Of a stretch of DNA of 64,000 nt, positions 34,932 to 49,612 are shown in pieces; positions within the stretch are counted from its first letter, which is position 1; each line of letters opens with the position of its first letter. The notes beneath the pieces are model-generated. The model searched no databases. It was not told the DNA's origin and saw only the letters and a list, made by a program, of their open reading frames with translations. This stretch comes from Thermotoga sp. SG1 (GTDB lineage: Bacteria; Thermotogota; Thermotogae; Thermotogales; Thermotogaceae), in NCBI RefSeq assembly GCF_002865985.1, contig NZ_LNDD01000001.1:359004-423003 (forward strand). The letters are read 5' to 3'. The translations under genes were made by a program, and so were the position numbers.

Positions 34932-36287
34932 ATGTTCCTCGGAGAGGACTACCTTTTGACGAACAAAGCAGCGGTGAGGCTTTTCAATGAGGTGAAGGAT
35001 CTTCCCATCGTGGATCCGCACAACCATCTGGATGCCAAAGACATCGTCGAGAACAAACCCTGGAACGACATTTGGGAGGTAGAAGGTGCAACGGATCACT
35101 ACGTTTGGGAACTCATGAGAAGGTGTGGGGTTTCGGAAGAGTACATAACGGGCTCCAGAAGCAACAAAGAAAAGTGGCTTGCGCTTGCGAAGGTGTTTCC
35201 AAAATTTGTGGGAAATCCAACCTACGAGTGGATTCATCTTGATCTGTGGAGAAGGTTCAATGTGAAGAAGGTGATTTCGGAGGAAACAGCCGAAGAGATC
35301 TGGGAGGAAACGAAGAGAATGCTCCCCGAAATGCCCCCCCAGAAACTTCTCAAAGAAATGAAAGTGGAGATCCTCTGTACAACGGACGATCCCATCTCGA
35401 CCCTGGAATATCACAGAAAGGCCGGAGAGACGGTAAAAGACGTGACAATACTTCCCACCTGGCGCCCTGACAGGGCGATGAACGTGGAAAAGAATGACTG
35501 GAAAGAATATGTAAGAGAACTCGGTGAAAGGTACAACGAAGATACCTCCACGCTTGAAGGGTTTCTGAACGCTCTCTGGAAATCACACGAACACTTCAAA
35601 GAGCACGGATGTGTGGCGAGTGATCACGCCCTTCTGGAGCCATCGATACACTTTGTTGATGAAAAGAGCGCTAGAAAAATCCACGAAAAGGCGTTCAAAG
35701 GAAAAAAGCTCGATCCTGAAGAAATCAGGGACTACAAGGCGTTCATGATGGTTCAATTTGGGAAGATGAACCAGGAAACGAACTGGGTGACGCAACTCCA
35801 TATAGGTGCATTGAGAGATTACAGGGACAGCCTTTTCAAAACGCTTGGACTGGATTCCGGAGGAGATATCTCAACGAACTTTCTGAAGATCGCAGAGGGG
35901 CTGAGGTACTTCCTGAACGAGTTCGACGGAAAACTCAAGATCGTTCTCTACGTGCTCGATCCCACGCATCTTCCAACTGTGACGACCATTGCCCGTGCCT
36001 TTCCGAACGTCTACATAGGGGCTCCCTGGTGGTTCAACGACAGCCCGTTCGGTATGGAGATGCACCTGAAGTACGTTGCCTCAGTTGATCTTCTTTACAA
36101 CCTTGCCGGAATGGTGACGGATTCGAGAAAACTTCTCTCCTTTGGTTCCAGAACGGAGATGTTCAGAAGGGTTCTCTCGAGTGTTGTCGGTGAGATGGTC
36201 GAAAGGGGCCAGATTCCCATCAGGGAAGCGAAGGAACTGGTGAAACACGTCTGTTACGACGGTCCGAAGGCGCTCTTCTTCGGATGA
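34932..36287 (+). CDS. uxaC: glucuronate isomerase
   Basis: A 451-residue TIM-barrel isomerase converting D-glucuronate to D-fructuronate (and galacturonate to tagaturonate). Family blocks are LPIVDPHNHLDAKDI near residue 27 with the HxH metal pair, EILCTTDDP near 142, PTWRPD, CVASDHALLEP, TQLHIGALRD and LLSFGSRTEMFRR near the end. Length is normal. SD GGAGGTGG before ATG. It starts the pathway continued by UxuB and UxuA on the other strand and is fed by AguA. Confidence 0.95.
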   Translation: MFLGEDYLLTNKAAVRLFNEVKDLPIVDPHNHLDAKDIVENKPWNDIWEVEGATDHYVWELMRRCGVSEEYITGSRSNKEKWLALAKVFPKFVGNPTYEWIHLDLWRRFNVKKVISEETAEEIWEETKRMLPEMPPQKLLKEMKVEILCTTDDPISTLEYHRKAGETVKDVTILPTWRPDRAMNVEKNDWKEYVRELGERYNEDTSTLEGFLNALWKSHEHFKEHGCVASDHALLEPSIHFVDEKSARKIHEKAFKGKKLDPEEIRDYKAFMMVQFGKMNQETNWVTQLHIGALRDYRDSLFKTLGLDSGGDISTNFLKIAEGLRYFLNEFDGKLKIVLYVLDPTHLPTVTTIARAFPNVYIGAPWWFNDSPFGMEMHLKYVASVDLLYNLAGMVTDSRKLLSFGSRTEMFRRVLSSVVGEMVERGQIPIREAKELVKHVCYDGPKALFFG

Positions 36288-36298
36288 GGAGGGAAAAC

Positions 36299-36742
36299 AT
36301 GAGAAAGGTCCTCAATTACGTTTTCGCCTATCTCTTCCTCGTGGTGACGGGGGCACTTGGATTCTACGTGATTTTCATGGAAGGAAGAAGGTTCTTCTTC
36401 ACGGTTCTTGGGCTCACAAACGCTCGTGTTCAGACTATAAACGCCGTGGACAAGTTCGTGGTGATCGTTCTTGGCATTGTCTTTCTGGGGGTTTTCATGT
36501 TCAGTGAGGATTATTTCAGAAAGAAGGCAAAGGGCGGTGTAAAAGATCTTCTGAGGGCGTTTCTCATGGTCTCCGGGATGCTCATGCTCGTCTGGGCAGG
36601 TTTTCAGGCACCGTTCTTTTTCTCCGTTGGCTACAAATTAGGAACATCGGAGGCCGTGAGTTATTTCTCAAAACTCATCGCAGGCACCCTTCTTCTTGTC
36701 TCCTCCAGGTATCTGAGAAGTGAGCGCCTCCATACCATATAA
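36299..36742 (+). CDS. membrane protein of unknown function in the uxaC operon
   Basis: A 147-residue protein with four probable transmembrane helices (about residues 6-26, 47-69, 82-104 and 116-134). I recognise no family. ATG 36299 follows GAGGAGGG by about six bases; ATG 36284 overlapping the uxaC stop would add five residues. It is co-directional with uxaC and followed by a strong terminator, so it belongs to the glucuronate unit. A minor transport or sensing role is conceivable but nothing in the sequence shows it. Confidence 0.75.
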   Translation: MRKVLNYVFAYLFLVVTGALGFYVIFMEGRRFFFTVLGLTNARVQTINAVDKFVVIVLGIVFLGVFMFSEDYFRKKAKGGVKDLLRAFLMVSGMLMLVWAGFQAPFFFSVGYKLGTSEAVSYFSKLIAGTLLLVSSRYLRSERLHTI

Positions 36743-36773: not shown

Positions 36774-37310
36774 TCACTGAGCAGGATCGTACACAACTTC
36801 AATGGTAGAATTGTTTCCTTGCCATCCTTGGGGTGTACCATCTTCAAAGTCGGTCTTCAACACAACCTCTCCAGCTTCGTCTTTGATCACAAAGTCATCG
36901 AAGTAAAAGACGATACCAGAAGTCTGAGGTTCGATGTAGATGTCCGATGGAGCCCCGTCGGCGGAATTGAGCATGTAGGTTGCCTCAATAGTCACCCATG
37001 TTGCCGGAGGAACTTCTCTTTCGTGGAACACGGGTTTGTATTGATTCTCTGCAGTTTTCAGTGTAAGGTTGAACTTCACGGAGGTAGCCTCTTCATGGTA
37101 GATCCTGACGCTGTAGGTATAAGTGGCATCTGTGCTGATGTAATTTTCTATATTGTAGAACCATGCTGTTTTCCAAGTTTCGTCACCTGTTTCCACCTTG
37201 AGAACTCTGTTCGATACCCCTCCTTCCGCTCCAGGCATAGAAACGCACCCTGAAAGAATCACAAGAAAGACAAAAACTCCCAGTACACTCACCAAAAACC
37301 ACTTTTTCAT
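36774..37310 (-). CDS. lipoprotein with a CBM-like beta-sandwich, apparently permuted
   Basis: A 178-residue protein. Signal peptide and lipobox VILSGC (Cys at residue 22) give a lipid anchor. The rest resembles a CBM22/CBM4_9-type carbohydrate-binding module: NRVLKVETGDETWKTAW matches the second conserved segment of such modules, and IVFYFDDFVIKDE the C-terminal strand. The usual first strand (FE.G...W) is missing from the N-terminus; a matching VLKTDFEDGTPQGW occurs at the very C-terminus instead. It follows xynA on the same strand after a terminator. SD is a run of G. Likely role is holding xylan at the cell surface; unproven. Confidence 0.7.
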   Translation of the reverse strand: MKKWFLVSVLGVFVFLVILSGCVSMPGAEGGVSNRVLKVETGDETWKTAWFYNIENYISTDATYTYSVRIYHEEATSVKFNLTLKTAENQYKPVFHEREVPPATWVTIEATYMLNSADGAPSDIYIEPQTSGIVFYFDDFVIKDEAGEVVLKTDFEDGTPQGWQGNNSTIEVVYDPAQ

Positions 37311-37350: not shown

Positions 37351-37380
37351 AGAAGAAAAGAGGGGGAGGGAGTCCCCCTC
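37351..37380 (-). terminator. xynA terminator
   Basis: GAGGGGGA (37360-37367) and TCCCCCTC (37373-37380) make a perfect eight-bp stem with a five-base loop, followed on the minus strand by TTTTCTTCT. The stem includes the last bases of the xynA stop codon. Confidence 0.85.
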
Positions 37381-40300
37381 ACTTGATGAGCCTGAGGTTC
37401 CCAAACTTCGAAGGATCTCTCCAGCTGTTGTTCGTAGGATCGCTCCAGGAGATGATACCAACCCTCTGACCCTTCTCGTTCGCATCGTTCACCTGCACGT
37501 TGAAACCTATCACCGTGTCCGGACTCGGCTTGATCGTCTTCCACTTGATCGCCGCTTCAACGATGTACCCTCCTTCGATCAACTTCACAGCCGTCTTGAA
37601 CCTTGCTGCACTCGCTCCCGTCCCAAACGACTGTTCGTTCATGTAGTTCACCCTGAACTGTGCATCGTCATTCTCGTAGTAGCCCGTCTTGTGGTTGTTC
37701 TCGTCTATGAAGATCTCCACCGAATCCTGCTCCCACGGATTGCTGTTGTCTTTGTTCAATACCGGATCCTTCACTACCGCAAGAACATACAGATTCTCCT
37801 CGTCCCAAAGCACCCTCACCTTCGCCGTCGCGTTCTTCTCCAGTGACCCCATCGCTACAGACTTCGTCTCTATCTCTTCCGTCGTGTTCCAGATCTCGTC
37901 GATATCTCCATCGATGACAGGTGTTCCGTATTTCGCCGTTGCCACCATTACCCCTTCGAGCTTCAACACTCCATAGTTCATCGTGTTCGTCTTCTGGCTG
38001 TTCGTCGTGTCGCTCCAGCTGTACCACTTCCCGTCGTCTATCACTGCTATATCGAATCCTATGTAACTGTCTTTCTTGTACTCCACACCGGCTATCTTGA
38101 TCGACATCTCAAAACTGTACCTTCTAAAACCAGGCCCAACGAATTTCTTCACCTCTACGTCTTCCCTGTTGACCTCGCTCTTCCAGTTCGTCCATAGCAC
38201 AACGTACGTGTCGTCTGACTGCAGGTATGGTGTTCTTTCGTTGTTTGGGTTGATGAAGATCGCAACGCCATCTTCTGCAGGTTTCTTCGTCCTGTCCTGA
38301 ACCTCTCCGTAAACGTAGATCGTGCTGTCCTTCCATACCGCCCTGATCGTCGCCTTCACGTTCCCTTCTTCGTCGTAGATCTCTATCGGCATAGACATCA
38401 TGTAGGAGTCATCCATCATACCCACTACCACCGCTTCTCCTTCAGAGATCTTGCTTTCTTTTGAAAGAGGTGGTAGCACTTCAGGAGCGACAATCGCCCA
38501 GTAAGCGAGTTTTGCCTGATAATCTTTGTCAAAGATCAATGTCCAGTCATTTCTTCTTGTTGCTCTCCAGGAGTAGTCGTCTTTGAGACCCCAGAACGTG
38601 ACGTTTGTGATCACATTACTGTATTTCTTGAAGATTTCAAAGAGTTGAGCCATCTTGTGAGCCTGTTCAATGAGTGCGTTCCTCGGTGCCTCTGGGTAGT
38701 TGGAAGTAGAATCTCTGTAGACGCTCATATCGAGCTCTGTTATGTGGATTTCTATACCAGGGATGGAGCTGAACTTTTTGATGGCCTCTTCGATCTGCCT
38801 GATGTCCGTTGCAAGACTGATGTGACACTGCATACCGATTCCATCGATGAGACCCTTTTCCTTGAGACTCTTCACAAGGTTGTAGATGATGTCTCTCTTT
38901 TTGGGTTCGAAGGTGTTGTAGTCGTTGTAGAAGAGTTTCGCATCGGGATCTGCCTCCCTTGCAAACTTGAAGGCAAGTTCTATGTAGTCAGGCCCCATGA
39001 TCTGATACCAGGTGGATCTTCTCAGTCCATCTGGCTGGTTCGGATCGACCGCTTCGTTCACAACGTCCCATGCGTAGACCTTCCCTTTGAAGTGTCCAAC
39101 GACGGTGTGTATGTATTCTCTGAGTCTTTCTGTCATCGCTTCTTTGGAGAGGAGGTTTCCATTTTCGTCTTTGAAGAACCACTCGGGCGTCTGATTGTGC
39201 CATACCAGTGTGTGGCCCCTCACAACCATGCCGTTTTGCTGTGCAAATTCGATGTATTTGTCTGCTGTTTCAAATCTGAACTTGAGTTTGCCATTCTCAA
39301 TGCCTGCAAGCAGACTATCAGGTTTCATCTCATTTTCTGCGGTGATGCTGTTGAAGTGCTTGGTGATGAGCGTTAAGTCCTTCTGGTTGATGAATACCTT
39401 GGATGGAAGAGCAACGCCCACTCTGAAGTAGTCTTTCAGAACTTCCCTGAGGGCTGGTATTTCCTCTTCTGGATTCATCTCGAGTTTTATCTCAGCAGAG
39501 GTGGTGTCCACTACCTTCACATCGTCCACGTAGAACTCGAGGGTCGGATTCTGAGACTCGAAGTAAAGTGTGAGATCTTCCACTGTCACACCGGCAGGGA
39601 TCGTGTACGTTCCGGACAGCTGAACCCACTGTCCGGAAGGTACCGTGCTGGATTTAATCCACTCGTATTGTGTGTTGGCATCGGAGGAGTACTTCCTCTG
39701 CATCGTCATGATGATCGTCTGATCCTGACCGGATTCCTGATAGGCCCATGCTTCGAAAGCGTAGGTCTTTCCGGTTTTCAGGATTCCTTTCAAGTTGATC
39801 TGAGTACCATGCCAGCCCTTCTGTCTGTTAGAGACGAAAAGTGATTTCTTTCCAGAGTGTGCTACTTTTGAAGAAATGGAAATCTTCACGTCACCGCCTC
39901 TTGGCTGCCATTCTCCAAGGCCCTTTTCAAAGGAGGTTTCGTAAACAACCTTCGGACCTGCTTCCTTTGGCGTGAGAACCCGAACGTTGTCCACGTAGAA
40001 GATGAAATCAGTTTTTTTGGGTGAAGTGATGATCAGAGAGAACTTCGCTGGAGTACCTTCGAAGGTTGGTGAGAATGGAACGAGGATTTCCTTCCAGTAA
40101 TTCGGCACCGCAACCTTGTCGACCAGTATCTCGTACCTTTCACCTTTTTCGTCTTCTGTTCTTGCAAGAACGCTGAAAAGTTGCGGAGAATCGGAAGTCT
40201 GATAGACCTGGAAGGAAAGCAGATAATCGGCTCCTGAGTTGACTTTTCCAGTCAGATCGATCTCTACTCCATCCCACACGGAGGTTCTGTTTTCCACCTT

Positions 40301-40546
40301 CAGTGAATATTCTCCATCTGCTGCAACATCCTGTGAAGCGGTGACAACCACGTCTTTTCCAAAGGGGGAAGCACCGTCTGTGTTTCCTTCAAAACTCAGG
40401 GCAAGAGCCGTTTCAAAGGGAGAGACTTCCTCACCACCGAATCCCAAAACACCCGTGGCTGCGAGAACCACTCCGAGAAAACCTGCCAAGATACCAATCA
40501 GAACTACGCTCGAAGCATCCAAAAAACCCCATCTCTTCTTTCGCAT
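37379..40546 (-). CDS. xynA: multidomain GH10 xylanase XynA (toga-anchored type)
   Basis: A 1055-residue endo-xylanase. Layout: short basic N-terminus and a single membrane-spanning anchor ([19 protein letters not shown], about residues 11-29); two CBM22 modules (about 40-195 and 200-350, the second beginning [14 protein letters not shown]); GH10 catalytic domain (about 370-690) with acid/base Glu498 in WDVVNEAV and nucleophile Glu604 in ITELDMS; then two CBM9 modules (about 700-870 and 880-1055), the second ending in [13 protein letters not shown]. This is the known Thermotoga XynA plan. ATG 40546 was chosen over GTG 40558, which abuts the SD AGGGAGG. Confidence 0.96.
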
Positions 40547-40573
40547 GAACCCACACACCTCCCTATTGTTAAG

Positions 40574-49018: not shown

Positions 49019-49612
49019 TCAGATCGCACCGCCTTCCTGAGAGTGTACAACTTCCCACCTGAGATTGTCGATGTAGAAGTCGAGCGTAGCAGGTTCACTG
49101 GCTTTGATACCGAGAAGATATCGCTGGACATCATCAAGATCAGGGACGATCGTGGACCCCTCCACGGTCGTCCATGTGTTTTTGTTTAGAAGGGAAGTTG
49201 CTATCACTGTGAGGGATGTGCTCCCAGATGTTTCCTCGTAGATGTTCATGGTGACGGTTGCCGATTCTGTTTTGATCTGAAGAACATCAATGTAGAAACG
49301 CACGGTATCACCTTCAAAGACATCCTCCAGTATTTCTTTGAGATCGAACCACACACTGATGAATCCGGTGACGTTTGTTGAGGCAGGGGAGACATAAAGA
49401 ACCGTTCCGTGATCGCCTGCCTCAGGAAGGTCTTTTTCTTCTGCAGAGATGATGCTAGTTGTTGATTCTGGTGATTGTTCTTCCACCACACTTTCCACTA
49501 ATTCTTCTTCCTGAACTAGGTTAGAGATGGATGGCGTTTGAAAAACTGTTGTCAGCATACAACCTGCCAGAAGAATTCCGAACAAAAAAATGGAAATCAA
49601 AGTTATTTTCAT
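49019..49612 (-). CDS. lipoprotein with a CBM-like beta-sandwich
   Basis: A 197-residue protein with signal peptide and lipobox GILLAGC (Cys at residue 18), a Ser/Glu-rich spacer (about 25-65) and a beta-sandwich of about 120 residues. GTVLYVSPASTNVTGFISVWFDL and the end ATLDFYIDNLRWEVV resemble the inner part and last strand of CBM22/CBM4_9 modules. The first FE.G...W strand is not visible at either end. Together with the 36774-37310 protein it flanks the XynA-importer-AguA block. Function is inferred as surface glycan binding. Confidence 0.65.
   Translation of the reverse strand: MKITLISIFLFGILLAGCMLTTVFQTPSISNLVQEEELVESVVEEQSPESTTSIISAEEKDLPEAGDHGTVLYVSPASTNVTGFISVWFDLKEILEDVFEGDTVRFYIDVLQIKTESATVTMNIYEETSGSTSLTVIATSLLNKNTWTTVEGSTIVPDLDDVQRYLLGIKASEPATLDFYIDNLRWEVVHSQEGGAI

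Follow-up and report, generated by a model that had tools for sequence, protein, structure and literature searches.

A lipoprotein gene downstream of xynA

The window analysed is a 64,000-nucleotide stretch of the Thermotoga sp. SG1 genome (NZ_LNDD01000001.1, positions 359,004 to 423,003), and coordinates in this genome are counted from its first nucleotide. An open reading frame on the reverse strand (36774..37310) encodes a 178-amino-acid (aa) lipoprotein carrying a CBM22-type carbohydrate-binding module (CBM) whose segments appear in circularly permuted order. The sequence begins with a signal peptide and an LSGC lipobox (residues 1-22; 37245..37310, reverse strand), with Cys22 as the lipid attachment site; the lipobox Cys is invariant in the alignment of all four orthologues. 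A short flexible linker, recognised by poor conservation and low AlphaFold confidence, occupies residues 23-35 (37206..37244, reverse strand). The module body (residues 36-143, VLKVETGD...FYFDDFVIK; 36882..37205, reverse strand) was delimited with the Pfam CBM_4_9 profile and the strands of the AlphaFold2 (AF2) model, and corresponds to canonical strands 4-11. A new junction loop, DEAGE (residues 144-148; 36867..36881, reverse strand), connects the former last strand to the former first one, and the protein ends with the transposed head, canonical strands 1-3 (residues 149-178, VVLKTDFEDGTPQGWQGNNSTIEVVYDPAQ; 36777..36866, reverse strand), which was assigned from the Pfam profile, pLDDT and invariant positions.

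The xylanase gene xynA (CBM22-CBM22-GH10-CBM9-CBM9; 37379..40558, reverse strand) lies 68 bp upstream. A terminator-like hairpin in the gap between the two genes (37360..37380, reverse strand), found by consensus match only, could reduce expression of the lipoprotein gene downstream of xynA. Two genes face the lipoprotein gene: a convergent neighbour encoding a predicted 152-aa membrane protein (36284..36742, forward strand), present in every syntenic genome examined, and a 451-aa gene, which we take to be uronate isomerase.

Profile searches match the module in two stretches of swapped order

Pfam CBM_4_9 was the sole family match of the lipoprotein (45.3 bits, cut-off 25.9 bits) and fell in two stretches; an NCBIfam search gave no match. 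Searched alone, the body matched profile positions 36-132 (36.8 bits) and the tail, the last 31 residues, matched positions 3-31 (14.7 bits), so that together they cover the profile once, without overlap. When the tail was placed ahead of the body, a single match to positions 3-132 was obtained (53.5 bits). With a local profile built from nine canonical modules, the linear lipoprotein likewise matched positions 33-146 and then 1-30. The canonical strand order is therefore absent along the chain, strands 4-11 preceding strands 1-3, and the protein is made of two homologous segments, exchanged in order, which jointly cover one domain once. These matches agree with the initial annotation, which described a module that begins at its second segment, ends in FYFDDFVIKDE (residues 135-145) and is followed by a tail, VVLKTDFEDGTPQGW (residues 149-163).

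When all rotations of the mature protein were scored, the best were cut at residues ~145-149 in all four orthologues. A profile made from GH10-type CBM22s only, which served as a test free of close relatives, gave the same cut point, and canonical control modules scored best unrotated. With the GH10-type profile, 1000 shuffled tails were scored per orthologue, of which 0, 0, 2 and 3 did at least as well as the real tail. Given the rotation and shuffled-tail results, the match of the tail is not due to chance.

The predicted fold retains the strands of a canonical CBM22

AF2 modelling of the mature lipoprotein, from a shallow input alignment of 13 rows in which heads and bodies were entered separately, gave a mean pLDDT of 92.3 and a pTM of 0.84. 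Only the linker was poorly predicted (mature residues 2-9 below 50), and the tail reached 93-95. The canonical module B of a sister-genus lipoprotein (see below) gave 92.6 and 0.87, respectively. Comparison of the strand lists of these two predicted models showed 11 strands in each, in one-to-one correspondence after rotation by three; for example, the canonical strands WSGN (17-20) and AQIQVVE (22-28) have WQGN (142-145) and STIEVVY (147-153) as their permuted counterparts. The earlier suggestion that the C-terminal segment completes the fold is in keeping with the model, where that segment is ordered and its strands correspond to canonical strands 1-3.

In Foldseek searches, the canonical model aligned with CBM22 structures over their full length (TM 0.79-0.86, 150-162 columns), whereas the permuted model typically aligned over ~120 columns with a TM of ~0.6, its best match being 4mgq (TM 0.68, 167 columns, 4.5 Å); CBM22 structures made up most of its top 20 matches. 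The shorter alignment, which is not a direct superposition, can be attributed to the aligner being sequential and the chain permuted. A phmmer search of the PDB with the lipoprotein returned weak matches only, the best being CBM22s, and therefore no close structure was found there. The models indicate that a CBM22-type beta-sandwich is kept despite the swap of strands.

The permuted form is conserved within Thermotoga

Of seven Thermotoga genomes, four were found by genome search and alignment to encode the permuted lipoprotein (58-81% identity), with identical strand order in each. An assembly artefact was ruled out, as the order is common to the four genomes and two of these are single-contig assemblies. 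Among the four orthologues the tail has few amino-acid changes relative to many silent ones, with dN/dS of 0.06-0.13 where measurable, silent sites often being saturated. Two further genomes have xynA and lack the lipoprotein, the gene for the 152-aa protein following 36-53 bp after xynA; the lipoprotein gene is cleanly missing from the interval between these genes (L026, 3152-3205; L027, 3138-3174). No match to the lipoprotein was found in the remaining genome (G009). Outside the four Thermotoga genomes, a scan of 103 Thermotogota and 200 Treponema-family genomes found no other permuted module of this kind, and the long-frame matches spanned tandem CBM22s.

A second small lipoprotein of 197 aa is encoded in the same xylan region as xynA (49019-49612, reverse strand). 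Its CBM_4_9-like body matches profile positions 61-121 below the cut-off (14.1 bits) and ends in FYIDN, and an FE.G..GW head was not found on either side. This protein, whose conservation extends to four or more further Thermotoga genomes, may be a further truncated or rearranged CBM.

Unpermuted relatives indicate that the canonical order is ancestral

A genome contig scan with a single protein as query found no match; with an alignment as query, two canonical relatives were recovered. A Thermotogota MAG of a sister genus (L015:5275-6357, JAUQPE010000010.1) encodes a 360-aa lipoprotein with two modules of normal order, A and B, which are joined by a long PEPQ-repeat linker, and its gene sits in the corresponding slot, with xynA on one side and the uronate isomerase region on the other. 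Two Treponema genomes encode canonical single-module lipoproteins adjoining a GH10 xylanase (L016:2178-2741; L033:1489-2058). Identity to the body of the 178-aa lipoprotein was 56% for module B, 42% for module A, 45-47% for the Treponema proteins and 24% for the second CBM22 of XynA (CBM22-2), and identity to its head was 60% for the sister-genus lipoprotein and 38% for XynA CBM22-2. Across the permuted forms, the Treponema bodies share 45-49% identity with most and 39-41% with the most divergent.

In a tree in which six forks were weak, the permuted proteins and the sister-genus modules grouped together (support 99/100) with Treponema outside, and the lipoproteins grouped apart from the XynA modules. 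The position of the permuted forms relative to the pair of sister-genus modules was not resolved in the tree, and the identities favour module B. The canonical order is found in the sister genus, Treponema and the XynA modules and is therefore ancestral, which makes the permutation derived; it arose within Thermotoga or on the branch leading to it.

Profile matches, the AF2 model and the unpermuted homologues encoded at the corresponding locus together support the assignment of the lipoprotein module as a circularly permuted CBM22/CBM_4_9, and bear out the permutation put forward in the initial annotation. The permutation is real, conserved and derived.

Proposed architecture and origin of the permuted module

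Taken as a whole, the data are best explained, with high confidence, by a permuted CBM22-type lipoprotein, which most likely originated from a trimmed tandem and most likely binds xylan or xylo-oligosaccharides near XynA. In the architecture supported by sequence and model, the outward-facing lipoprotein would form one CBM22-type beta-sandwich with canonical strands 1-3 at the C-terminus. Its new N-terminus, created by opening the loop that links canonical strands 3 and 4, would bear the lipid tether, and the five-residue loop would connect the old last strand to canonical strands 1-3, allowing the tail to fold back to its ancestral place and to give a complete module with its cleft. As a side effect of the permutation, the membrane tether would exit the module at another edge. 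The orthologue-level permutation, fixed in one genus at a locus where a sister genus keeps the unpermuted tandem, may have been selected for the way in which the shifted tether reorients the cleft relative to the cell, a tentative suggestion that we consider doubtful.

The tail could instead work between molecules, its strands 1-3 completing the sandwich of the next protein in a strand-swapped dimer or surface chain. A short-loop junction followed by a C-terminal tail is a layout able to swap, and the AF2 modelling covered the monomer only; however, AF2 predicts the monomer with confidence throughout, no partner being required, and we regard swapping as unlikely relative to a tail that folds back on its own module.

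Circular permutations are explained by two general models, permutation by duplication and fission-and-fusion (PMC3320104). Permutation by duplication is the best fit and most likely applies here: a tandem of two copies would have been trimmed out of register, leaving the body of copy 1 and the head of copy 2. Module B is clearly the nearer relative of the body, and the head lies at about the same distance from A and B, which tips the balance somewhat towards a B-B rather than an A-B tandem as the precursor. No partly trimmed tandem intermediate was found in the genomes searched. Fission-and-fusion, in which separate head and body genes were re-fused in the other order, has standing as the second general model, but tandem two-module forms are seen in the genomes searched and a separate head or body gene is not, making this route slightly less probable still than strand swapping.

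Plain loss from a once longer two-module lipoprotein would give another reading, in which the tail is all that is left of the second module, 30 residues without a structural part, and the two-module lipoprotein in the same slot of the sister genus fits such a history. However, the first module would then lack exactly those 30 residues that the tail supplies, AF2 orders the tail at the pLDDT given above, and four species that have diverged to ~58% identity all keep the tail, its dN lying far under dS wherever dS can be measured. No remnant of a module follows the stop codon in the window, where the convergent gene ends ~30 bp on. We judge this improbable, more so than fission-and-fusion. A derivation from the tandem CBM22-CBM22 of XynA, as the initial annotation had envisaged, would suit the adjacency of the genes and the fact that any such tandem holds a body-plus-head unit matching the permuted profile across its boundary, but it is rejected as very improbable on the alignment with XynA CBM22-2 (24% for the body and 38% for the head, versus 56% and 60% for the sister-genus lipoprotein) and on the separate branching of the lipoproteins in the tree; the out-of-register tandem cut proposed along with it remains likely, with the lipoprotein's own module as the material.

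Putative function and regulation

Four residues of the lipoprotein, W46, Y91, Y125 and E127 (within 36928..37175, reverse strand), were mapped onto 1dyo/1h6x and correspond to W53, Y103, Y136 and E138 of the C. thermocellum CBM22; all are invariant in the four orthologues. Together with R25, these C. thermocellum residues reportedly form the xylan site, according to mutant work on 1h6x/1h6y. Four of the five positions are thus kept, and the Arg25 position is Asn (N166, in the head); canonical relatives have Asn (module B and Treponema) or Gln (module A). With this substitution at the binding site, the ligand may be something other than plain xylan.

The T. maritima CenC protein of the xynA-cenC operon is presumably TM0062, and a literature search on TM0062 turned up only an unrelated strain. 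The xynA-cenC genes belong to the XylR regulon and are upregulated ~10-20-fold on xylose (PMC3750489). Gene order suggests that cenC is probably the permuted lipoprotein gene, and the gene is probably also present in T. maritima MSB8. The retained site residues, the place of the gene in the operon and the XylR regulon as published suggest that the lipoprotein is most likely tethered to the membrane and binds xylan or xylo-oligosaccharides on the cell surface, next to XynA; its induction most likely accompanies that of xynA. The protein could be of use for engineering, as a permuted, thermostable CBM whose termini lie at new positions.

Comparison with known systems

The CBM22s of C. thermocellum Xyn10B (1dyo/1h6x) and P. 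barcinonensis Xyn10C (4xup/4xuo) resemble the lipoprotein in profile, in predicted strands and in the W53/Y103/Y136/E138 positions, whereas the lipoprotein has its strand order rotated by three, stands alone rather than as part of an enzyme and has Asn at the Arg25 position. The sister-genus lipoprotein shares the slot and the lipobox and has a body 56% identical, but differs in having two modules of normal order and a PEPQ linker. The Treponema lipoproteins resemble the permuted one in being single-module and beside GH10 but have the normal strand order. T. maritima CenC has the same gene order as the lipoprotein and is named there as a CenC-type protein only, the main text making no mention of a permutation (PMC3750489). 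No report of circular permutation in CBM22 was found in the open-access literature searched.

Natural circular permutation between carbohydrate-binding modules was reportedly described by Montanier et al. in 2010 (J Biol Chem 285:31742), the families concerned being CBM36 and CBM60. Natural permutation of CBMs is therefore already known, and the CBM22-type case adds to this precedent. CBM36 and CBM60 are two separate calcium-dependent families, and it is usually from comparisons of distant families that natural circular permutations are deduced, whereas the Thermotoga case is CBM22-type and lies within one orthologous group at one locus. Here, permuted and unpermuted orthologues occupy one gene neighbourhood and represent the states after and before the change, making the trimming model and the effects of permutation on stability and binding directly testable.
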